Source: a virus
Reading direction: 5' to 3' (one strand)
Virus record (IMG/VR): IMGVR_UViG_3300009506_000738
Span: 1 to 25,739 of that record
DNA length: 25,739 nt
Position 1 is the first letter of the stretch. Each line of letters begins with the position of its first letter. Both the position numbers and the translations under genes were made by a program. Shown here piece by piece: positions 7,637-19,477 of this stretch. Under the pieces are notes generated by a model. It had not been told where the DNA came from. It saw only the letters and a list, made by a program, of their open reading frames with translations, and did not search any database.

Positions 7637-8023
7637 TTACGTCAGTACCGGCTCAGGGCCGTCACCGAATGCCGCAAAGCGAACTCGGCCAAGCGAGGTC
7701 AACGCGGTGTCTCCATTAGTACCATCCCAAAGGAACAATGCCTCACTTGAGTAGTTGTAGGCCCATGTGAGAGTTTGAGTAGTAGAAGGAAGTCCTGTCG
7801 TCAAGTTATCACCAGCCACTGGTGAAATCAAAACGCAATCAAGCGTTTCAAGACCAAGATCCTTTGCAGTAATAGTCTCACTGGTAGAGTAAGTTGTGAT
7901 ATTGATGTCACCAACACACACAAGTTTGTTGTTCTTTGAACTACCACTGGAATCTACACCACCGGCCGCAAACCCCTGTCCAGCAAGGGTACCACGATAG
8001 AGAATTCTAACATCATTAGCCAT
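7637..8023 (-). CDS. Tandem capsid-decoration-like protein, copy 3
   Basis: This 128-aa protein is the third of three adjacent paralogues. Shared landmarks are the N-terminal MAxDVR, a central VGDI(N/D)ITTY motif, a DLGL strand before the variable middle, and a C-terminal (R/Q)(V/L)RF-A-(F/I)GD ending in P-x-LT. The copies are similar in length (120-128 aa) but have diverged strongly outside these motifs. The gene has its own strong ribosome binding site (AAGGAGATAACC then ATG). Small all-beta proteins encoded in multiple copies near the major capsid gene are often capsid decoration or head-fibre subunits. That role is inferred from position and composition. Confidence 0.8.
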   Translation of the reverse strand: MANDVRILYRGTLAGQGFAAGGVDSSGSSKNNKLVCVGDINITTYSTSETITAKDLGLETLDCVLISPVAGDNLTTGLPSTTQTLTWAYNYSSEALFLWDGTNGDTALTSLGRVRFAAFGDGPEPVLT

Positions 8024-8034
8024 TGGTTATCTCC

Positions 8035-8397
8035 TTATGTCAGTTCCGGAAGGGCCGAATCACCAATCGCCACGAATCGAAGCTGTGCCGACGCATTTGG
8101 ATCATCAGATCCCGTTCCATCACAACAAACCAACAGATTCGTTGTGTGAACGTAGTTTGCTTCGGGAAGCTGCGCCGCAGCCGGAAGAGTATCATCGACA
8201 TCGCGCATAGAGACAAACAGGCCATCAATTGTGCTCAACCCGAGGTCAGCCGGTTTGATAGGTTCACCGCCGCTCGTATAGGTAGTGATATCGATATCAC
8301 CAACAACCAAGACCTTGTTGCTCTTTGCGACACCGTTAATGTCTTTACCACCAGTAGGAAGCGCGGTAATAGATCTAGTTCTAACGTCAATCGCCAT
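8035..8397 (-). CDS. Tandem capsid-decoration-like protein, copy 2
   Basis: This 120-aa protein is closest in pattern to copy 1 (8410-8781). Both begin MAIDVRT, carry VVGD(V/I)DIT followed by SGGEP or SASGEP and a DLGL strand, and end (R/Q)-L/F-RF-x-A-x-GDS with a PELT terminus. Copies 1 and 2 are separated by only 12 bases, with AAGGAG before this ATG. The variable block between DLGL and the C-terminal motif differs greatly, as expected if the copies face different surfaces or partners. Virion surface location is inferred. No enzymatic motif is visible. Confidence 0.8.
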   Translation of the reverse strand: MAIDVRTRSITALPTGGKDINGVAKSNKVLVVGDIDITTYTSGGEPIKPADLGLSTIDGLFVSMRDVDDTLPAAAQLPEANYVHTTNLLVCCDGTGSDDPNASAQLRFVAIGDSALPELT

Positions 8398-8409
8398 TAT
8401 AATGTCTCC

Positions 8410-8781
8410 TTACGTCAATTCTGGCGCAGCAATACTGTCACCAAAAGCGATGAATCGAAACTGGCCAGTCGTGTTTGCCTCAGTGGCGCCTTCTGTGCCA
8501 TCAAAGAGCAATACCTGATTAGCTGTGTAATCGTAATTCGCTCGCATATGTTGCGTTGCAGAGGCCACGGTTCCATCAACATCAAGGATATCAAAACCGA
8601 TGAAGTCGATGTTTTCAAGACCAAGATCCGTCGGTGTCAACGGCTCACCACTGGCCGAGTAGCTACCAGTAATATCAACGTCACCAACAACCATGGTCTT
8701 TCTGTTAGATACCTGGCCGGTAAGGGTAAAACCAGAACCGGTCAAAGGCAGTCGCACTAGCGTTCTAACATCAATTGCCAT
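8410..8781 (-). CDS. Tandem capsid-decoration-like protein, copy 1
   Basis: This 123-aa all-beta protein is the first member of the three-gene array. Its motifs are MAIDVRT at the N-terminus, VVGDVDITGSYSASGEP in the middle, a TDLGLENIDF strand and a C-terminal FRFIAFGDS motif ending in PELT. A good Shine-Dalgarno (AAGGAG) precedes the ATG by eight bases, although the start also overlaps the end of the upstream DUF1353-like gene. The array probably arose by tandem duplication. Its closeness to the major capsid gene points to decoration proteins. An alternative is a family of short head-fibre subunits. Confidence 0.8.
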   Translation of the reverse strand: MAIDVRTLVRLPLTGSGFTLTGQVSNRKTMVVGDVDITGSYSASGEPLTPTDLGLENIDFIGFDILDVDGTVASATQHMRANYDYTANQVLLFDGTEGATEANTTGQFRFIAFGDSIAAPELT

Positions 8782-9187
8782 ATTGTTTCTCCTTTGCTAA
8801 TTCAACCATCCAATCTGGTTGCGTTATATTGTGACGACACCGTTCACCAACCTCAGCGTCGCAGCTATCCCAGGAACCGAAACCACCACCTATTCTCACC
8901 CCCAAATAGAGGATGATCGGTGCTAGATTAAGATACCAGGGGAGTAGTTCTCGTGCGTGCGTCCGTAGGGCCTTGTCAGCGAAGCTCTTGGCTTCATCTG
9001 TCATGGACCCTGCCCTATGGCAGCGCGTACAGTAGTGCCAGTCGTGGACCCGTCCTGCGTCACGCAACCGCCACTTTTGGTAGATCCAGTCTGGAAACCC
9101 TCCAGAGAGCCCATCGTCTTTGAAATCAGGGTAATCTCTATTGATGATGAAGAGGTACCAGTTAACGTGTTCGATTACCTTTCTCAC
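8771..9187 (-). CDS. DUF1353-like protein with PLA2-like HDxxY motif
   Basis: This 138-aa protein shows the hallmark pattern of the phage DUF1353 family. There is an HDW-x-Y segment at residues 48-52 (RVHDWHYC), an Asp-rich helix (SFADKAL, residues 68-74) and a C-terminal YLGVRIGGG segment (94-102). The HDxxY followed by a helical Asp resembles the catalytic region of prokaryotic phospholipase A2-type folds, but I infer no activity from this alone. Two cysteines flank the motif (CTRC, 53-56) and two more lie near the C-terminus. The start is GTG and overlaps the previous gene's TGA, with no clear Shine-Dalgarno, so expression is probably coupled. It follows a lipoprotein-like gene, which hints at an envelope-related pair inside the capsid block. 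Confidence 0.68.
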   Translation of the reverse strand: MRKVIEHVNWYLFIINRDYPDFKDDGLSGGFPDWIYQKWRLRDAGRVHDWHYCTRCHRAGSMTDEAKSFADKALRTHARELLPWYLNLAPIILYLGVRIGGGFGSWDSCDAEVGERCRHNITQPDWMVELAKEKQYGN

Positions 9188-9471
9188 GGGATTGGATTGA
9201 CGCCCTTCACAGCGCCTTTAGCGAGGCCTTCTGCTACTTTACCGCCGAGTTCGGTGGCGTTATCACTAAGCCCCGTATCTTTCGTGTCATAGCTGAGTGA
9301 GACATCACAGTGCTCATCAATGACATACAGTTCAGTTTCACCGGTGCCAAGAACAGTAGACCTTACTTCAGCACAGAGCGACCCATCAGGAAGATAAAAC
9401 TTGCTGTGGACGTGGGCGCACCCAAAGGTGAGCCCACAGACCACAAACAAGGTTATGAGTAAACGTCTCAC
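9184..9471 (-). CDS. Small lipoprotein-like exported protein
   Basis: This 95-aa protein has a positively charged start (MRRLL), a hydrophobic stretch (residues 4-16) and a TFGC sequence with Cys18. Together these look like a lipoprotein signal peptide with an imperfect lipobox. The mature part is polar with three strands, two further cysteines (33 and 55) and a Gly/Ala-rich C-terminal helix. The start is GTG, three bases after the upstream stop, and the TGA overlaps the GTG of the DUF1353-like gene. Phage lipoproteins may act in lysis (Rz1-like), superinfection exclusion or envelope modification. None can be chosen here, and the proline-rich composition of Rz1 is lacking. Confidence 0.65.
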   Translation of the reverse strand: MRRLLITLFVVCGLTFGCAHVHSKFYLPDGSLCAEVRSTVLGTGETELYVIDEHCDVSLSYDTKDTGLSDNATELGGKVAEGLAKGAVKGVNPIP

Positions 9472-9474
9472 GAC

Positions 9475-9783
9475 TTAGTTGACGTTGTCGTTACCACGAC
9501 TATTACCGCCGCGTTCGAAGTTCAACGTACCTTCGTGCCTAGACACGATCAGATACTCGGTGCCAACCGTACCGCTATCGATGGCGATCGAAGCACCGCC
9601 ACCGGTAAGGTAGAACGTCGGATCAGAAGTAGCCGTAGTAGTATGCAGAAACGCAGCATCGGCCGCGTTCGGCAGTTCGAGATGGTCAGAAGTCGTGGTC
9701 AAGACCTTCACCGTAGAGATGATGACCTTGGTACCATTGACGTGATCGACAACCGTTTGCTTGGAGGGGAACAATTTAGCCAT
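9475..9783 (-). CDS. Small beta-rich capsid-associated protein
   Basis: This 102-aa protein has the MAKLFPSKQ start that recalls the neighbours at 9796 (MATLKPSN) and 7214 (MANLLPTQ). The rest is strand-rich with Gly/Thr turns (FYLTGGGASIAIDSG) and a polar Asn/Gly tail. A strong ribosome binding site (AAGGAGG) lies eight bases before the ATG. It sits second after the major capsid gene, a place where decoration and head-stabilising proteins are common. Function is inferred from position, and I do not recognise the family. Confidence 0.75.
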   Translation of the reverse strand: MAKLFPSKQTVVDHVNGTKVIISTVKVLTTTSDHLELPNAADAAFLHTTTATSDPTFYLTGGGASIAIDSGTVGTEYLIVSRHEGTLNFERGGNSRGNDNVN

Positions 9784-9795
9784 TATTCATCCTCC

Positions 9796-10113
9796 TTAAG
9801 CGTCAATCTTCGAAGACGACGGTCCAGCCGCGCTGCCCATGAATCTGGCAACGATGGTCTTAGTCCCATTGGCTTCCGAGGACGCAATAGTGACTTCCTT
9901 CACGTAGTCATTAGTGCTGTCTGCGTCAGCAACGGTGACGTTGCCTCCACGAGTGCCGTCCGCCTTGAGTTCAGACGCGCCGTAACAACTGTTATCGACC
10001 TCAACCGTAGTGTTCGCACTACCGCTCGTCCCGTGATAAACCGTAAAGATCCAGTAATGATTACCGGCGCGGTCATCAACTTGGACAACATTTGAAGGTT
10101 TCAGAGTAGCCAT
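9796..10113 (-). CDS. Small beta-rich capsid-associated protein, first after the capsid gene
   Basis: This 105-aa protein is mostly beta (HYWIFTVYHGTSGSANTTVE; VKEVTIASSEANGTKTIVAR) with a polar Ser/Gly tail. The ATG is preceded by AGGAG at eight bases. It is the first gene after the major capsid protein but is separated from it by 137 bp containing a hairpin and a 22-bp near-palindrome, so its expression may be set differently from that of the capsid gene. It shares a loose MA-x-L-x-P-S start with the next gene, which may indicate an old duplication. A decoration or head-stabilising role is inferred. Confidence 0.75.
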   Translation of the reverse strand: MATLKPSNVVQVDDRAGNHYWIFTVYHGTSGSANTTVEVDNSCYGASELKADGTRGGNVTVADADSTNDYVKEVTIASSEANGTKTIVARFMGSAAGPSSSKIDA

Positions 10114-11481: not shown

Positions 11482-12399
11482 CTACCGTCCATTTGCTTTC
11501 CTGATGATCCCTGCCAGAGCTGCATTGAACTCGTCTTCGGACTTCTCGGCAATGACCTTAGTCTTGCCACCTTCCTCAACCGTTTTCAACGCACCCCAAG
11601 GCTGGTCCATCACTTCCGCCAACTCCTCCTCAGGAGTCTTTACGGTAGCCGGTTCTGGTGTCAACTCTTGTACTTCATCAGCAGTGAACAGGGCACCACG
11701 TGGCGTTCCGTACTGGTCAAGGGCCTCTTGGAAGCCCCGGGTCAGTTGCTGGGCAAGATTATCTGGATCGGCCACAGCCTCAGTCCAGTTCATCTTGTTG
11801 TTCCAGAGTGTCTGAACGATGACTCGATCATTCTCGTCATACGTTTCAGGCAGTTGTGCCAGGAGTTTCTCGGCGATCAGATCGGCTCTCGCGACCAGGG
11901 CTTCGGCTTGTGCCGTGGCCTGGACATCCGCAATCTCTTCCCGAGTCTTCTCAAGAAGGGCCTGCGTCTTCGCTTGTGCCTCTTCGGGGGTGGTCTCTCC
12001 CCGCTCCACTTCCTCTTCGATGCCCCGGAGCTTCTTGTCGATAGCGATGACATGGTCTGCCATCTTGGGGTCATTCACGAAACTCTTGATTTCGTTGAGG
12101 GTTTGGACTGCCTCGTCTTTCTCCTCCAGAAGCTCAGCCATCTTGACGAGTCTCTGATTGGACTCGGAGAGCTGCTGTTCAAGCAGATCCTTGGAGGCCG
12201 CAACCTCCTTGAGTCGTTCATTGATCTCGTTGAACCGCGATTGAGGGATTCGATTCTCCGGTTTGTCTTCCGGCTCCTCTACCGCAGCGGCGTGGCTCTG
12301 TGTGCCTTTCTCTACTGGTTGCGTGGTGGATGTTTCCACAGCGGCCTTCAGTTTGTCCTCGACTGTAGGCTCTTTTACATCCGGGTTTTCTGTACTCAT
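11482..12399 (-). CDS. Scaffolding protein
   Basis: This 305-aa protein is acidic and almost entirely helical, with a long coiled coil (about 55-190: RFNEINERLKEVAASKDLLE; EEVERGETTPEEAQAKTQAL). The disordered N-terminus is rich in Glu, Thr and Pro, and the C-terminal helix is basic (GIIRKANGR), as in many scaffolds that dock to the shell through their C-terminus. It immediately precedes the major capsid gene, separated by 22 bp. The start has AAAGGAG at ten bases. It is the first gene behind a promoter, so scaffold and capsid form the head of a transcription unit. No protease domain is visible. Confidence 0.85.
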   Translation of the reverse strand: MSTENPDVKEPTVEDKLKAAVETSTTQPVEKGTQSHAAAVEEPEDKPENRIPQSRFNEINERLKEVAASKDLLEQQLSESNQRLVKMAELLEEKDEAVQTLNEIKSFVNDPKMADHVIAIDKKLRGIEEEVERGETTPEEAQAKTQALLEKTREEIADVQATAQAEALVARADLIAEKLLAQLPETYDENDRVIVQTLWNNKMNWTEAVADPDNLAQQLTRGFQEALDQYGTPRGALFTADEVQELTPEPATVKTPEEELAEVMDQPWGALKTVEEGGKTKVIAEKSEDEFNAALAGIIRKANGR

Positions 12400-13022: not shown

Positions 13023-13892
13023 TTATTTATTGGGGTTTCCACGAACCAGGGCGGAAGCCGCTGCCTGGGCCATCTCTCCGGGCGACGCTTTGCCTGTCGC
13101 GGACTGCGCGTTGGCCATCTCGGCCCAGTCCATAGCCTGGATGTACGGGGCCATTCCATGAGACCGCTGGGCATCCAAAGCAGCAGGGTCACCGCGGCTC
13201 TCCATTTCCTGCCAGTCACTCAGGAAAGTACTACCCTTACCAGCGCCGGGCCCAATTCTGCTATTTGCTTCGGATACCCTATTACGTGGTGTATTTCCAA
13301 ACAGTCCGGACTTCTGTGCCCTTCTCTGTTGGTTTTGTTGGCGATTCTGGAGCAAGGTAGTATTGGCCCTACCACCAGTGAGATTAGTCACCTTGCCGGT
13401 GTTTGAGGTCATCTCACCGCCCTGCCCTCTAGCTCCCTTCAGCATATCTTTGGCGGCTGCGGCTTGTGATCTAAACTTCCCTGCTTCAGCGTACATCGGG
13501 TCTAAGATGTTTCTCTTGTATGCGTCCGCCTCTCGGGTATCAATTACTTTCTGAGCCCTCGCTTCTGCGGCTGCCGCTACTCCGGGACTCTGAGCCAATG
13601 AACCCATGTTCTCATGTGTCGTAGCCACTCCCCGGGATTCTTTGAGCGAAGTTCTCTCAGCTTCAGTCATGGGCTCCGGAGCTAGTTTGGGTCCGGTAGG
13701 AGGAGCCAGTAGTGTGCGTCCAATAGCCTTTGAGCTACCAAACCCGATGCCCATATCAGCAGGATTCCCGGTGATGATGACAGACGTATCCTTTGGTTGG
13801 GAGGCGCTGATGGATCCACCAGTGGGCAACTTCTTGGCACGCGGGTCAGTGGGTAGGAACCCCATGCCTAAGTTGTTGAAATTTATTGCCAT
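13023..13892 (-). CDS. Low-complexity virion-module protein
   Basis: This 289-aa protein is rich in Ala, Gly, Ser, Asn and Gln. It has a short hydrophobic N-terminus (MAINFNNLGMGFLP), a disordered middle, an Ala-rich helical part (about 100-155) and an Asn/Gln/Arg block (LLQNRQQNQQRRAQKSG). The C-terminus is more ordered and amphipathic (MAPYIQAMDWAEMANAQ; EMAQAAASALVRG). There is a good Shine-Dalgarno (TAGGA). It lies between small basic proteins and the scaffold-proximal genes. An internal-virion role is plausible, but no motif proves it. Confidence 0.7.
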   Translation of the reverse strand: MAINFNNLGMGFLPTDPRAKKLPTGGSISASQPKDTSVIITGNPADMGIGFGSSKAIGRTLLAPPTGPKLAPEPMTEAERTSLKESRGVATTHENMGSLAQSPGVAAAAEARAQKVIDTREADAYKRNILDPMYAEAGKFRSQAAAAKDMLKGARGQGGEMTSNTGKVTNLTGGRANTTLLQNRQQNQQRRAQKSGLFGNTPRNRVSEANSRIGPGAGKGSTFLSDWQEMESRGDPAALDAQRSHGMAPYIQAMDWAEMANAQSATGKASPGEMAQAAASALVRGNPNK

Positions 13893-13901
13893 GAACTATT
13901 C

Positions 13902-14150
13902 CTAGAGTAGCTTCCGCTTCTTCCGAGCCATCTTCTTCTCGGCCATTGCGGCCTTCTTCTCAGCCTTGGCCTTTGCCTTTGTTGCCTTGCGGAGTTCCTT
14001 AGCCCGCTTATCGGAAGGCTCCTTCTTAGTATGGACACTACGCTCGCTCCCACCTGCTGAGATCCTGCGACCTGTGGAGGCGGTGGGAACCTCTTTTCCA
14101 AGAACGGAAGACTTCTTAGCGGGGGCTGTCTTAGTGAGGGGTGTAATCAT
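13902..14150 (-). CDS. 82-aa very basic protein
   Basis: More than a third of the residues are Lys or Arg. The C-terminal half is a continuous basic, Ala-rich helix ending KKMARKKRKLL. It could bind nucleic acid or a negatively charged protein surface. TAGGAG, formed by the previous gene's stop, sits six bases before the ATG, and the stop is followed in frame by a second TAG. No family is recognised. It is one of three consecutive small basic genes. Confidence 0.7.
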   Translation of the reverse strand: MITPLTKTAPAKKSSVLGKEVPTASTGRRISAGGSERSVHTKKEPSDKRAKELRKATKAKAKAEKKAAMAEKKMARKKRKLL

Positions 14151-14159
14151 TGTATGCTC

Positions 14160-14519
14160 CTATCTCTTGGCTATTGCCTTGATAAATCCTGTAAGTGTCT
14201 GAGCCTTACGGATTGTTGGAATTAGTTGTGCGGGGTGCTCAATCTTGCCAAGAGGCCCGGTGGTCTCTTCCAGTTGGTCAGTCTCACCGAGGATACCACG
14301 AGCCCGCTTCTTTAGTGCTTTACGAGCAGCTTCTTGGATCTTGCCACGGAAAGCCTTTTTGTAGGTAGTCGGCGTCTCGGGAGCGTACCTACCCTCCATT
14401 GTACGATCACCATACCCAAGACTTCTTCCACCGGACTCATCTCGCTTCGCAGCGTACTCTAGCTTATCTCGTAGCCCCGCCTTGTACACGGGTTTGTTCG
14501 TTTTGTTTGATCTGGGCAT
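14160..14519 (-). CDS. 119-aa basic protein
   Basis: The N-terminal half is polar, with a Tyr/Gly/Arg-rich segment (SGGRSLGYGDRTMEGRYAPE) and a basic helix (FRGKIQEAARKALKKRARG). The C-terminal part is a milder amphipathic helix (IRKAQTLTGFIKAIAKR). An AAGGA site precedes the ATG by six bases. Position within the basic cluster suggests a virion-internal or packaging-related role, but nothing in the sequence proves it. Confidence 0.68.
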   Translation of the reverse strand: MPRSNKTNKPVYKAGLRDKLEYAAKRDESGGRSLGYGDRTMEGRYAPETPTTYKKAFRGKIQEAARKALKKRARGILGETDQLEETTGPLGKIEHPAQLIPTIRKAQTLTGFIKAIAKR

Positions 14520-14521
14520 CG

Positions 14522-14746
14522 TTAGTCCTTCTTCTTAAAACGTTCTTTGAACTTCTCGAACACAGCTTTCCTGGCCTCTTCTCGGCTCTCCTTGCGGGCC
14601 TCTCGGTTCTTCACCCCCTTGGAGTACTTCTGGAACCCTTCCCAGCCACCTCGTTTGGTGGCGCGCTCGGCACCCTTCTTGAATCTGGACTCACGGCGCG
14701 CCTTTTGCTTATCTTTGATTTCCTGTAGCCGAGATCTAAATGTCAT
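14522..14746 (-). CDS. 74-aa basic helical protein
   Basis: Lys, Arg and Glu dominate. Two amphipathic helices (RLQEIKDKQKARRESRFK and EARKAVFEKFKERFKKKD) flank a Gly/Trp turn (RGGWEGFQKYSKG). The ATG overlaps the TGA of the 1189-aa gene (ATGA), so translation is probably coupled to it. The helix-turn-helix-like layout may simply be a coiled coil. No DNA-binding family is recognised. Confidence 0.68.
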   Translation of the reverse strand: MTFRSRLQEIKDKQKARRESRFKKGAERATKRGGWEGFQKYSKGVKNREARKESREEARKAVFEKFKERFKKKD

Positions 14747-17700
14747 GCCTTCCTCTTCTTAGCCTCAAGGGCCTGCCTCCGCTTGTAAGCCTCCTTGGCC
14801 TTGCGGGTTCGGGTTGCAGCCTCGACCGTGCCATACTTTTCCTGCGCGGTCTTGGCTTCTCGCTTGGCCTCACCAGTGGCGTAATACCCTTCGCCGATCT
14901 GTGTGGCCAGCTCCTTAGCATTTCTCACTGCCATTGGGATAGCATACTTTCCGATGTACCCGGCGATTCCTAGCCTACCGAGAGCTGCGGTAGCACCTCT
15001 AGCAAACGCTGCACGGGCCGCGTTGGCCCCCAGTGAAGTCACCACCTTTTGGGCAACAGCAGGAATCACCTTCGTGATACCGTAGTCAGCCACCGTGAAC
15101 TTGGCGATGCCTTCAACTGTTGCCGGAAAGCTAGTCACCAGTGTCTTAGCCGCAGTACCGAGTCTCTTCTCGGGGACGGGCTCCTCTGCACCGGCCTGTG
15201 TAGCCTCTAGTGCGGAGAATCCTAACGCTGCGAGACCGAGACCCTTCGCCGCTTTGATGCGTGCCTCTGTGGAGAACGTACTCTTGGCCTTCTCACCAGC
15301 CACTTCGATAGCCGGAGAGGTCAGTTTCTTGATCGATGCCTCATATGCCTTTCGGCCCCAGTCAGCGATTCGGTTCTCCCAGATCTCAGCGTAGGACTTG
15401 GGCACCTCGGCCTTGGACTCGCGATACCGGGCGGGTTCAGTGGGGGCTGGGGCTCGGTTGTATGTCTGAGATCCAGTACGGAGTACGTCAGGTGCTTGTC
15501 GTCTGGGCTCTGTGGCTCGCGTTTGCATCATCTCTTCCGCGCTCGGAGTCCCCGTCGGGCTCGCGCGGCGCTCTGGTTGCTTCGGAACGTCACGCCGCCC
15601 CTCAGGGCCTCTCACTCTCGCTCGGCGCTCTACGTTCGGGATAGTCACTTCGGTCGCAGGAGCTGGAGTGTTGATAACCTCCGCAACTGGCGGTAACGCC
15701 CTGGTGCTTCTCGGCGCCGGAAGCTCTGGCTGCTGCCCGGCCTTGATGGCCTCCAACTGCTTCAACGCCTCCTCGCCTCGGTAGATCCCAGCACCACCCG
15801 GAGCCATTCGCTTCCGGATTTCAGCGATCCTCTCATCAATCGTCTTCTTGTCGGAAGGTGCGGCTGGGAGAGCGGACCCACGTGCCCTAGCCAGCTCTGT
15901 CTCAGCATCCATCGTTCGATCCAAGAACATGGTACGGGCGTCGGCCTTGCCAGTCTGTTGACGGGAGGGCTCTCGGCGCATCTCGTCGTAGTACTCATCG
16001 AAATACTCGTCCATCGTCCGGTCGTATTCCTTGTCGATCGCCTGCTCCAAGCGATCCATCTGCTCCGGAGTGGCGTTTCGGCTAGCTGCGATGTTGCGGG
16101 CCTTGTTGGCTGCGGTACGGATGTTTTCCGCACGCTGCCCGCGCACCGTCTGGTCGAGCTTGATGAGATCCTCTGGTGATCCACGGAACTCCTTGGTTCC
16201 GTGGTCGGTCTCTAGGTCGGGTGGCACCATCGGGATCTTACGCACCTTAGCCTCGACAGCTTCCTTACCGAACATCTGCTCAGAAGTACGCCGGTCACTT
16301 TCAGCACCATGAACAGCCTGTGTCGGCCCTGGACCTTCGTATTTCTTACCGGCATTTCTAGCTGCTGCCCGCGCTCCTTCCTCAGAAACCTTGGCTGTGA
16401 CATCGAGTAGGTTCCGCTCGGCCTTCTTCTGCAACGCCACGGCTTCCTCTACCGCTCCCTCTGCCGGGTCGGTGGGGATGGTAGCGATACCCTTCTCCTC
16501 AATCGACTGCTGCTTTCGCTGTCTACCAGCCTTACGGCCCGCGCGCCGCTCTCTCGCCTTCTGAGCGACTCGCTGCTCGGTGGGGGTCAGTGTCACTTCC
16601 GGGGCCGGGGGCGCGTCAACGCCCTTGAGGTCACCAGCCGCAGCGCGGGTGGTCTCCGGGGTGGTGTCCGGGATCGGCGCCGCAGAGGTGGGAGCCTCAA
16701 CTTTGGGGATACCAGCCTGTTCTTTCGGCGTCGCATTCTCAGCCCGAGCCTCGGCTAGGAGGTCAGCCGTAGTTTTACCAGCGGGCGCAGGAGCCTGTGC
16801 GGGGACAACAGGGGCAGGAGCACGAGCGGGAGTTTCACCAGCTCTCCTTCCGGTTCCTGCCCTTTCCTGGCCGCGTCTGGGAAATACTCGGACTCGGCGC
16901 TCGGTAGGCGCTGCCGGTGTGGTACTGGGGGCTGTTGCTTCCGGGATACCGTCCAATCTCCCAACCTTGGGAGCCTCAGTAGAGGCACCAGCCGGGCGGG
17001 GCGGGGTCACATCCGCGGGCGTGGAAGCCGGAGTCTTGGGAGCCGGGGGCTTGGGAGCCGCAGGGGTCTCTGGGGCCTTGTTAGCCTCCGGGAGCATACC
17101 GACATTAGGAGTCGTTACCTTGGGCACGCCAGCTCGACGTACGGGTTTCGTTTCTTGTCGCTGTTCGGCGATCCGCTGGAGCTGCTCATTCGTGTAGTAC
17201 CCAACGCCCGTGGCCTGTACGGGACGGGAGGCTGCTTCAGTCGCTCGGCGATTGGAGCCCTGCTTTCGTCGGCTTCCACCCTTGGGCGCGATACCACGCT
17301 CTAGATCACCACTAGCAGCTTCGGCCTTGGTCATGCGGGTGGCCGTGTTGCGGCGCTGTTCCTGACGGCGCTCACCTTCGCGCTTATTCAACTCTTCGAC
17401 CGTGTAGTATCCGGTGCCGGTAGCCGTCACTGGCCGACGGGCAGCTTCAGTAGCGACGGGTGTTCTTGCCTCGATCGCCGCCGGGGTCGGGACAGTGACC
17501 TTCGCCACTGTCGGAGGCTTCACCATAGTTCCTGCTCTTCCTCTAACTGGAGTGGGCTTCGGCGCTGCTACTGCTTTCAGAGGAGTGGGTTCCGGCCCCT
17601 TAGGAACCTTCACCTCAACCTTCTCCGGACCGGGGAGCCCTAGGGGAGGCTTGGGCAAGCCCTTCGGGGGCGCGGGGAGCTTGAGCTGTTCCGCCGGGGG

Positions 17701-18312
17701 CTCGTATTTGACTTCCTTCGGGAACCTTAGCTCATTCACAGACATCTTCGACTGCTTGAGGGGCTCAATCTCACCGACCGGCTTGGCCAGTTCGATTTCA
17801 GCAGGCTTCTGTTTCTTGAGGAGTAATGCTGTTCCTGCTACGGTCCCAATAGCGGTACCTACGGCTGCCAACGGTCCAAAGATGTTGGTAGTGCTAGTGC
17901 CTGTAGTAGAAACGGATTTATTCCTCTGCGGAGTGGTGGTAGGAGCACCTTCCTGAGGAACTGTTACCTTGGGAACAGAAGAGGCAGTATGCGGCTTAGG
18001 CTTGGGGGTAGTGGCCTTCTTGGCCTTACGGAGCTGAGTGGTCGCTTTCGAGATAGCATCCTTGGTCGGGTTGTGCCCAAGGTCTACGACTGTGGATCGT
18101 CCGCCAGCATACGTCTTGGTCTTCCCGGCGGTGGAGGGAATGGACGGTGCCTTGGGCTGGCGCCCGGGGAGAGTCTTCTTCTGCGTGCCTCTGGTAATGC
18201 TCCACCCAGACGGCGCCGTGGTGGTCGTCGTCTTAGTATCACCGGTAGTCACGCTCTTCCCGGTCTTCTTAGCCAGCGCCTTCGCTCTATCAAATCGTTC
18301 CTTAGTGGTCAT
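14743..18312 (-). CDS. Giant Pro/Ala/Thr/Lys-rich protein with terminal hydrophobic segments (candidate ejection protein)
   Basis: This 1189-aa protein is mostly low-complexity and rich in P, A, T, K, R and E. It contains many short (V/I)PKV-x-(T/A/V)P spacers, for example at residues 113-119. A hydrophobic Gly/Ala segment at 143-165 could span a membrane. Two imperfect repeats (about 287-322 and 357-390) share ATEA, RPV, ATG-x-GYYT and a following charged helix. Residues about 640-790 are highly charged helix. From about 1015 to 1150 the chain becomes hydrophobic and Gly/Ala-rich (LGLAALGFSALEATQAG; LGRLGIAGYIGKYAIPM), with a basic C-terminal tail. The location between portal and scaffold genes and the membrane-compatible ends suggest an internal virion protein delivered into the envelope during DNA ejection. 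It is also the right size for a tape measure, but order and composition argue against that. There is a strong RBS (TAGGAG). Confidence 0.78.
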   Translation of the reverse strand: MTTKERFDRAKALAKKTGKSVTTGDTKTTTTTAPSGWSITRGTQKKTLPGRQPKAPSIPSTAGKTKTYAGGRSTVVDLGHNPTKDAISKATTQLRKAKKATTPKPKPHTASSVPKVTVPQEGAPTTTPQRNKSVSTTGTSTTNIFGPLAAVGTAIGTVAGTALLLKKQKPAEIELAKPVGEIEPLKQSKMSVNELRFPKEVKYEPPAEQLKLPAPPKGLPKPPLGLPGPEKVEVKVPKGPEPTPLKAVAAPKPTPVRGRAGTMVKPPTVAKVTVPTPAAIEARTPVATEAARRPVTATGTGYYTVEELNKREGERRQEQRRNTATRMTKAEAASGDLERGIAPKGGSRRKQGSNRRATEAASRPVQATGVGYYTNEQLQRIAEQRQETKPVRRAGVPKVTTPNVGMLPEANKAPETPAAPKPPAPKTPASTPADVTPPRPAGASTEAPKVGRLDGIPEATAPSTTPAAPTERRVRVFPRRGQERAGTGRRAGETPARAPAPVVPAQAPAPAGKTTADLLAEARAENATPKEQAGIPKVEAPTSAAPIPDTTPETTRAAAGDLKGVDAPPAPEVTLTPTEQRVAQKARERRAGRKAGRQRKQQSIEEKGIATIPTDPAEGAVEEAVALQKKAERNLLDVTAKVSEEGARAAARNAGKKYEGPGPTQAVHGAESDRRTSEQMFGKEAVEAKVRKIPMVPPDLETDHGTKEFRGSPEDLIKLDQTVRGQRAENIRTAANKARNIAASRNATPEQMDRLEQAIDKEYDRTMDEYFDEYYDEMRREPSRQQTGKADARTMFLDRTMDAETELARARGSALPAAPSDKKTIDERIAEIRKRMAPGGAGIYRGEEALKQLEAIKAGQQPELPAPRSTRALPPVAEVINTPAPATEVTIPNVERRARVRGPEGRRDVPKQPERRASPTGTPSAEEMMQTRATEPRRQAPDVLRTGSQTYNRAPAPTEPARYRESKAEVPKSYAEIWENRIADWGRKAYEASIKKLTSPAIEVAGEKAKSTFSTEARIKAAKGLGLAALGFSALEATQAGAEEPVPEKRLGTAAKTLVTSFPATVEGIAKFTVADYGITKVIPAVAQKVVTSLGANAARAAFARGATAALGRLGIAGYIGKYAIPMAVRNAKELATQIGEGYYATGEAKREAKTAQEKYGTVEAATRTRKAKEAYKRRQALEAKKRKA

Positions 18313-18320
18313 TATGGCTC

Positions 18321-18701
18321 CTACATGCCAAATGGTTTGTATTCAACGTCCAGCCCAAGTCTTTGTAGTCTCTCTACCATGATGGGACCGGCGTGTTCGT
18401 TCCATGTATGAATGATGAACTTGGCTTTTATCTCACTGAACTCAGGCCAATAGTTCTTGTGTATGTTCTCCAAGAACCTCACCAACTCCATCCCACTCTC
18501 TTCGCTTGCCGTATTTTGATACGGGTGATCGCCAAGATCGTGTTCAAGATGAACTCGCGTAAGCTCCCTCCGGTAGTTCCACAAGGTCGTCTGAGCCTCA
18601 AGGAACGTCTTACACCAAATCGTATTTTCCTTGTCCTCCTTGCTCATCCTATTGTATGCCAGGACAGCTCGTTCAGGACTAGGATCCAGAAACAGAATCA
18701 T
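18321..18701 (-). CDS. cREC-like protein (cyclic-phosphate processing receiver domain)
   Basis: This 126-aa protein matches the pattern of the cREC family. It has a first strand ILFLDPSPE at the N-terminus where the family usually has LDD-x-R-x-P, an HLEHDLG motif (residues 51-57), SGMELVRFLE (69-78) and a final FIIHTWNEHAGPIMVERL block (95-112). cREC proteins are predicted to act on cyclic or terminal phosphates in RNA repair or nucleotide signalling, but no activity is proven by this. Here the early acidic pair is reduced to one Asp. The gene stands alone among structural genes, with a GGGGAGAG site and a TAG stop that feeds the next gene's RBS. The family call rests on motif order and spacing and could be wrong at the functional level. 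Confidence 0.65.
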   Translation of the reverse strand: MILFLDPSPERAVLAYNRMSKEDKENTIWCKTFLEAQTTLWNYRRELTRVHLEHDLGDHPYQNTASEESGMELVRFLENIHKNYWPEFSEIKAKFIIHTWNEHAGPIMVERLQRLGLDVEYKPFGM

Positions 18702-18709
18702 CTCTCCCC

Positions 18710-19477
18710 CTAGAGACCGCTTCTAGTAACTCTCCTCGCAAAGCCAGTGTTAGTGTTCTCCGTCTGAAACATCTGGCCAAGTCTAGAATTGAAGTGTGGA
18801 TTCATTCTGTAGCTTGACAGCGGTCTCCACCCTTCCCAAGTTCGTCTATCTGCAAATGTAGCGCGCGTGCCTAGTCGTGTCTCCTGCGTGCTGTACCGCG
18901 CTATCGTCGTATCTAGGCTGCTCGCGCCGGTGCCCTTGTTAGAGCCAATGGACTGAGACAGCGTAGTCTCCCAGCCTCTTTCCCGGTTCCTGGCGTTCCT
19001 GGCGTCCCTGCGGTATCTAGTCCCCGTCTGGCCAGCCAAGATTCCTTGGTGCTTTGCATTTAGCCACGTTGCTAGCTGGTTAGCCATGAAGAGGCCAGAG
19101 TTCGAACCATACCGTTGGGTTGGTGCGAACGCCTGCCCCGGAAACTGATATCCTCCCATCAGTACCAATCCAAGGTTGATGTCTCCCCGCTGCTTCTTCA
19201 CGTTTCCGAATTGGTCATACGGTACGTTCATGTTGTTCCGCGGGTTAGCCATCGTCCACGCGTTTGCTTCAATACCACGGTCCTGCGGAGAAACATTCGT
19301 ATAACCAGCTACATGGACGATACCAGACCTCGCTGCCGCTTGGGTCCGTGTAGTGTCTAATGTATTAAACGCCCAATTTACATGCGAGGCGTAGTATGGG
19401 TTGTTCGCCGCCCACGACTGCATGTAGTTCTTGGAACGGAATTGTTTAGCCGATGATCTATCGGGCGGTCTAGCCAC
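18710..19477 (-). CDS. Unrecognised Asn/Arg/Gly-rich virion-module protein
   Basis: This 255-aa protein is rich in Asn, Arg, Gly, Ser and Thr and poor in long hydrophobic runs. It has a Trp/Tyr-rich region (MQSWAANNPYYASHVNWAFN), a Gly/Phe/Gln stretch (LMGGYQFPGQAFAPTQRYG) and an Arg-rich helix (RRDARNARNRERGWE). The start is GTG with GAGAGG at seven bases, and the first codons overlap the previous gene. It follows the portal and a 62-aa gene, so an internal or head-associated role is plausible. No domain is recognised. Confidence 0.7.
   Translation of the reverse strand: MARPPDRSSAKQFRSKNYMQSWAANNPYYASHVNWAFNTLDTTRTQAAARSGIVHVAGYTNVSPQDRGIEANAWTMANPRNNMNVPYDQFGNVKKQRGDINLGLVLMGGYQFPGQAFAPTQRYGSNSGLFMANQLATWLNAKHQGILAGQTGTRYRRDARNARNRERGWETTLSQSIGSNKGTGASSLDTTIARYSTQETRLGTRATFADRRTWEGWRPLSSYRMNPHFNSRLGQMFQTENTNTGFARRVTRSGL

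Follow-up and report, generated by a model that had tools for sequence, protein, structure and literature searches.

To our knowledge, the loading of proteins beside the DNA in a phage head is well known only for T4, which uses an N-terminal tag, and for the portal-bound cores of T7 and P22. The T4 internal proteins (IPs), of which there are about 300 copies each, are basic and DNA-binding and are recovered together with the scaffold gp22; they differ from phage to phage, have a short sequence that targets them to the capsid, and are ejected (PMC9026906). Another long capsid cargo is gp45 of crAss001, which has a genome of about 100 kb and a portal like that of P22 (PMC10172136). This report concerns a giant basic protein of 1189 amino acids (aa) encoded in the IMG/VR virus record IMGVR_UViG_3300009506_000738, whose 25,739 nucleotides (nt), a 25.7-kb record in its own right, are hereafter called the window. 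The block from portal to scaffold encodes basic and for the most part disordered proteins, of which the giant protein is the largest (Table 1). Its place between these genes, within a basic island accompanied by an acidic scaffold, points to an internal head (prohead-core) protein that would work like the basic T4 IPs, a reading to which a probability of about 0.52 is given here; a virion-related, head-associated product is likely.

The basic island and its largest gene

The gene is a real coding sequence that is under purifying selection in relatives. On the minus strand it forms a single ATG-started open reading frame (ORF) without interruption, with an AGGAG box as ribosome-binding site 5 nt ahead of the start codon, and its stop overlaps the start of the next gene as ATGA; the plus strand of that frame contains stops. 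For the homologs of two relatives (L041 and L026) the ratio of nonsynonymous to synonymous substitution rates is 0.20 over 1209 codons, compared with 0.08 for the major capsid protein (MCP) and 0.34 for the scaffold of the same pair. Antisense ORFs of 99–205 aa within the gene were rejected because selection and conservation track the minus-strand frame. The chain contains 16% Ala, 10% Thr, 10% Pro, 9% Arg, 9% Glu and 8% Lys, and is predicted to be largely disordered: in the full-length AlphaFold model 736 of the 1189 residues (62%) have a predicted local distance difference test score (pLDDT) below 50, and the charge-hydropathy rule classes 64% of its windows as ‘unfolded’. An earlier note on this DNA, which had described a disordered Pro/Ala/Thr/Lys/Arg-rich chain of this length, is borne out in these respects.

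Counted from the portal along the minus strand, the gene order is portal, 62 aa, 255 aa, a cyclic-phosphate receiver-like (cREC) protein, the giant protein, 74, 119, 82 and 289 aa, followed by two small ORFs, the probable scaffold, the MCP, small proteins, an SU10-type adaptor, a nozzle protein (845 aa) and fn3/tail-fibre-like proteins. These are the structural genes of a short-tailed phage, and the operon-like position from portal to scaffold and MCP, with overlapping start and stop codons, favors a core protein.

Relatives were reached via synteny with portal and MCP (about 50 loci emerged when viral contigs were scanned for these two proteins) and by a profile scan with the C-terminal module described below. 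Island charge was compared in genomes where portal and MCP are both present. Proteins from portal to scaffold are mostly strongly basic, except cREC; genes outside this interval range from neutral to acidic, and the scaffold has a strong negative charge (net –18 to –61 over the family). In the window the island carries net +161 against –29 for the scaffold, and the median charge per 100 aa is +11.3 inside the island versus –3.8 outside. The corresponding island and scaffold values are +205 and –39 in L018, +348 and –61 in L023, and +232 and –43 in L041, and the island of a further relative reaches +296; in L035 and L046 the island consists instead of many basic proteins of 50–100 aa. The more positive the island, the more acidic the scaffold tends to be (rho –0.52, p 0.04, n = 16, kinship ignored). 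A basic protein set with an acidic scaffold, as in a T4-type core, is found in the window and likewise in most of the family, while P22 and T7 have no genes between portal and scaffold.

Proximity to the scaffold region, opposite charge and the charge co-variation with the scaffold would also suit a factor acting in assembly only, a basic co-scaffold or chaperone that would neutralize the acidic scaffold or portal while the procapsid forms and would not persist in mature virions. This is quite unlikely: a second transient scaffold of more than 1000 residues would be costly, a protease or exit route was not identified, and the controls examined (P22, T7, T4, and crAss001) offer no direct precedent.

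Homologs and modules

Full-length homologs occupy the same slot in L018/L022 (1195 aa; contig G004, 41 kb), L023 (1430 aa) and L041 (1484 aa; contig G001, 119,470 bp), and incomplete ones exceed 1232 aa in L026 (contig G002, 119,599 bp) and 1316 aa in L045. N-terminal parts occur in L002, L007, L008, and L010, C-terminal parts in L024/L064 and L063, and shorter proteins of this kind lie in the same slot in L033 (635 aa), L038 (more than 695 aa) and L070 (696 aa; contig of 119,592 bp). The closest homolog, that of L018 on G004, shares 45% identity with the giant protein over aligned residues, conservation being best near the N-terminus, in residues 600–860 and in 970–1189. With the whole protein or a close homolog as query, no additional viral contigs were obtained, probably because the chain is too variable.

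Next to the conserved N-terminal module, at a constant relative place among homologs, lies the single N-terminal hydrophobic segment that the earlier note had reported (residues 147–165, Kyte-Doolittle (KD) value 1.69, a height attained by 4% of shuffles). The same note had spoken of membrane-like ends; for the C-terminal end the label is weak because its three hydrophobic peaks (KD 0.97–1.06) lie within shuffle expectation for such an Ala-rich protein, although the C-terminal hydrophobic helices are stronger in L023 and L041 (KD 1.42–1.66). The [VI]PKVxxP spacers (3 copies versus 0.001 expected from shuffles) and the GYYT units (2 copies versus 0.005) are likewise present as described, and are real yet lineage-specific: neither is generally conserved, the homologs have other repeats (VAKVxxP in L018; TPVD in L023, L026, and L010; KGGK in L070), and only L045 carries a GYYT-like copy (GWYT). 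The duplication of GYYT thus stands, whereas the name ‘helix unit’ does not, because AlphaFold places no helix at copy 1 and a single short low-confidence helix (residues 375–383) at copy 2; nor is the idea of spacers as extended rigid rods supported, because their sequence and number differ among lineages while charge is kept. The conserved element of this region is a box of about 50 aa rich in Arg, just after GYYT copy 1, rather than GYYT or PKV; every long homolog has one or two copies, and the second copies in L023, L045, and L041 were matched at E values of about 1e-4 to 1e-3 outside the seed of the hidden Markov model (HMM).

Fast evolution and lineage-specific repeats would also be expected of a head-carried protein injected for host takeover or anti-defense, in which the disordered chain would carry small conserved boxes that act as effectors. 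The neighboring cREC, for which processing of cyclic nucleotides in conflict systems or a part in RNA repair has been proposed (PMC7824862), and the anti-restriction activity of T4 IPI (PMC9026906) agree with such a role, which is nevertheless very unlikely, given that searches of PHROGs, Pfam, and PDB profiles and folds found no enzyme domain in the giant protein and that the conserved boxes are short, Arg-rich and unlike enzymes.

At the other end, the giant protein closes with a module of some 75 aa that terminates in KYGTvExATxTRK and whose profile matches island proteins only and always at the C-terminus. It also occurs on separate small basic island proteins of 240 aa in L047 and 180 aa in L070, the latter at E = 9e-7 and outside the seed. 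Further C-terminal segments are shared within genomes by proteins of 696 and 108 aa in L070 (z 11.7), 635 and 112 aa in L033 (z 14.4; both terminate in SPEERGT), 188 and 178 aa in L045 (z 18.3), and 156 and 128 aa in L037 (z 37.2). Different bodies with a common end would look like capsid-targeting tags, and the island with its movable C-terminal modules, more than the giant protein alone, is the most interesting outcome of the analysis.

The reading as an internal head protein thus draws on the observed gene position, charge pattern, predicted disorder, modularity and selection, and on analogy with T4. Like the giant protein, T4 IPI, IPII, and IPIII are basic, vary between related phages and go with an acidic scaffold (PMC9026906; T4 gp22, net –28). 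They otherwise differ from one another but have a short targeting segment in common (PMC9026906), to which the shared C-termini of the island would correspond if these act as tags. The T4 proteins are small (8–20 kDa; PMC9026906) whereas the giant protein and its full-length homologs span 1189–1484 aa, and the genes lie here, unlike those of T4 IPs, between portal and scaffold. A sequence relation to T4 IPs was not found in any library, with no PHROG, above-threshold Pfam or phage-record match to IPI–III, Alt, gp67, or gp68; because size, gene position and tag end differ as well, the protein is not filed as a T4 IP member. We infer that the protein would be loaded during procapsid assembly by docking of its C-terminal helical module, probably helped by the conserved N-terminal module, on the portal or the acidic scaffold. 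On scaffold exit and DNA entry, the packaged DNA would be bound by the long K/R/P/A/T-rich chain with its Arg-rich box, and the protein may leave with the DNA at infection.

Several points weigh against this proposal. The island is weakly basic or non-basic in L015, L016, L042 (net –11) and L044, and the portal-scaffold interval of T4 itself is not basic overall (gp67 net –25, gp68 +9, gp21 –10). The T4 targeting tag is N-terminal and cleaved whereas the shared segment is C-terminal here; in the window, the giant protein has no C-terminal segment in common with its own neighbors; and shared C-termini may stem from tandem duplication with fast decay of the remainder. A pure DNA-binding role, moreover, leaves the N-terminal hydrophobic segment unexplained.

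A broader proposal, to be regarded as tentative and rather doubtful, is that a lineage of short-tailed phages of about 119 kb possesses internal head proteins of its own: the polycationic, disordered proteins of a fast-changing island, up to 1484 aa long, would each be loaded into the procapsid through a C-terminal tag that the acidic scaffold or portal recognizes, and would serve as histone-like filler of the packaged genome. A conserved basic island with movable C-terminal modules would mean that short-tailed phages have independently evolved a second way of loading. Such a giant polycation, disordered and enclosed in a pressurized capsid, would bear on DNA packing and release, and the C-terminal tag, if it works, would provide a handle to place proteins in such capsids.

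Comparison with ejection proteins

The ejection proteins of T7 (gp14, gp15, gp16) and P22 (gp7, gp20, gp16) resemble the proposed role of the giant protein in that they are internal, one is very long and some have hydrophobic segments. They differ in gene position, charge and disorder: their genes follow directly after the tail genes instead of lying between portal and scaffold, and they are mostly helical, ordered and near-neutral. The giant protein carries +5.8 net charges per 100 aa against –1.1 to +3.1 in these proteins, and 18.8% of order-promoting residues against 23.5–30.6%; a phmmer comparison with the six proteins gave no match. In addition, its lineage has ejection candidates of its own. 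In G001, genes of 398, 509, and 1198 aa stand directly after the nozzle and fibre-like genes, the place held by gp14-15-16 in T7 and gp7-20-16 in P22; homologs occur on G004 and, for two of the three genes, in G007. In charge and share of order-promoting residues their products, unlike the giant protein, resemble the T7 and P22 ejection proteins. Their role as an ejection cassette is suggested by position, order and composition because they have no sequence match to the T7 or P22 proteins; a recognizable lysozyme domain was not found in them either. The window ends before the cassette position.

The earlier note had set the protein apart from standard podovirus ejection proteins, which agrees with these differences and with the absence of PHROG, phmmer and PDB matches, and had suggested a new type of ejection or trans-envelope protein, a role that loses its support because relatives, including the closest (G004), carry a T7/P22-like cassette of different composition. 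A protein ejected to aid the crossing of the envelope by the genome, with the N-terminal segment and C-terminal helices in membranes and the Pro-rich chain across the periplasm, is accordingly unlikely. In its favor are the conserved place of the N-terminal hydrophobic segment, the C-terminal hydrophobic helices of L023 and L041, the basic C-terminal tail, which T7 gp16 also needs (PMC8954989), and the one predicted transmembrane helix likewise present in crAss001 gp45 (PMC10172136). Beside the separate cassette and the unlike charge and disorder, it is opposed by C-terminal peaks that in the window do not rise above shuffles and by spacer motifs that are not conserved. Both gp45 and the giant protein are long and have such a segment, but the gp45 gene lies after the tail genes and its product has a folded portal-bound domain (PMC10172136) and a net charge of only +1.9 per 100 aa.

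Other identities were considered for the giant protein. It had no match in PHROGs, including the internal virion protein families, nor in a tblastn search of 50,697 phage records, and fold comparison of its full-length AlphaFold model with PDB and viral structures turned up nothing significant; the C-terminal part modeled alone was poor (mean pLDDT 52). Its sole Pfam match, PGA_cap (E 0.003, below the cutoff of that family), was rejected as chance, as were the matches of a PDB profile search. A tape-measure role was dismissed because the SU10-type adaptor and nozzle mark a short-tailed virus and because, relative to the capsid genes, this gene lies on the wrong side.

Features, neighboring genes and source lineage

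Table 1. Coordinates of the features in the window and, in the last two rows, in relatives.
Feature	Position	Strand	Basis
Portal protein, 733 aa	19655..21856	-	P22_portal (Pfam)
Basic island protein, 255 aa, net +19	18710..19477	-	
cREC domain protein, 126 aa, acidic island member	18321..18701	-	Domain match, charge
Giant basic protein, predicted disordered, 1189 aa, isoelectric point 10.1, net +69	14743..18312	-	ORF list, composition, AlphaFold
Conserved N-terminal module GWxI...QKKT...TVVDLGxNPT, residues 36-106	17995..18207	-	Alignment of 8 homologs
[VI]PKVxxP spacer copy 1, residues 113-119	17956..17976	-	Motif count
N-terminal hydrophobic segment, residues 144-166	17815..17883	-	Hydropathy, homolog alignment
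RPVTATGTGYYTVEEL unit (GYYT) copy 1, residues 293-308	17389..17436	-	
Conserved Arg-rich box ERRxxxRR...SRRxxGSxRR, residues 307-360	17233..17394	-	HMM search
RPVQATGVGYYTNEQL unit (GYYT) copy 2, residues 363-378	17179..17226	-	
[VI]PKVxxP spacer copy 2, residues 396-402	17107..17127	-	Motif count
[VI]PKVxxP spacer copy 3, residues 535-541	16690..16710	-	Motif count
Predicted helical segment, residues 577-653	16354..16584	-	AlphaFold
Predicted helical region, residues 713-857, part common to L041/L026 homologs	15742..16176	-	AlphaFold
C-terminal predicted helical region, residues 974-1188	14749..15393	-	AlphaFold
C-terminal KYGT module, residues 1104-1188; KYGTVEAATRTRK at 14800-14838	14749..15003	-	Profile search
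Basic island protein, 74 aa, net +16, start overlaps stop of giant gene (ATGA)	14522..14746	-	
Basic island protein, 119 aa, net +14	14160..14519	-	
Basic island protein, 82 aa, net +19	13902..14150	-	
Basic island protein, 289 aa, net +10	13023..13892	-	
Probable scaffold, 305 aa, net -29	11482..12399	-	Position, acidity, coiled-coil-like sequence; no family match
Major capsid protein, 402 aa	10251..11459	-	PHROGs
Candidate ejection cassette	G001 22094-28429 (L057 3094-9429)		Position, order, composition
Candidate ejection cassette homologs	G004 (L065 7422-13819)		All three, in order

The cREC gene lies inside the basic island in every relative that has both portal and MCP flanks, and its place beside head genes makes a head-linked role or a packaged enzyme possible. 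After the capsid gene, at 7637–8781, the window has a tandem array of three small acidic genes that are related to one another (128, 120, and 123 aa) and whose products all start MA.DVR; L041 has three comparable genes, and they are possibly decoration proteins. At 647–1348 an ORF of 233 aa resembles the N-terminal part of an 895-aa protein of G001 and stops early, so that a frameshift or a shorter version may be present here. No RNA gene or tRNA was found.

The source lineage is an uncultured short-tailed phage related to the contigs of about 119 kb and known from environmental DNA alone. In the search for a host, a portal scan of bacterial genomes gave no match; one MCP match, on a contig binned as Deltaproteobacteria, is a weak hint of a host in that group.

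Two relatives show possible homing elements around the head genes. In L070 (JAJFLM010000335.1, at a contig end; locus 9050–10020) the major capsid gene is interrupted: between MITFQTLGDMLLRRYVVDFIG and QMQQLSAPIYTQL lie some 860 nt that contain stops and a LAGLIDADG-like ORF (9257–9934). This insert, which matched no Rfam family over threshold, looks like an intron with a homing endonuclease. In G001, a zinc-ribbon/HNH-like ORF (VKRCYRCDTEKDESEF...) lies at 9520–10080, directly 3′ of the capsid gene, and similar ORFs occur elsewhere in that contig, which suggests homing elements around the head genes.

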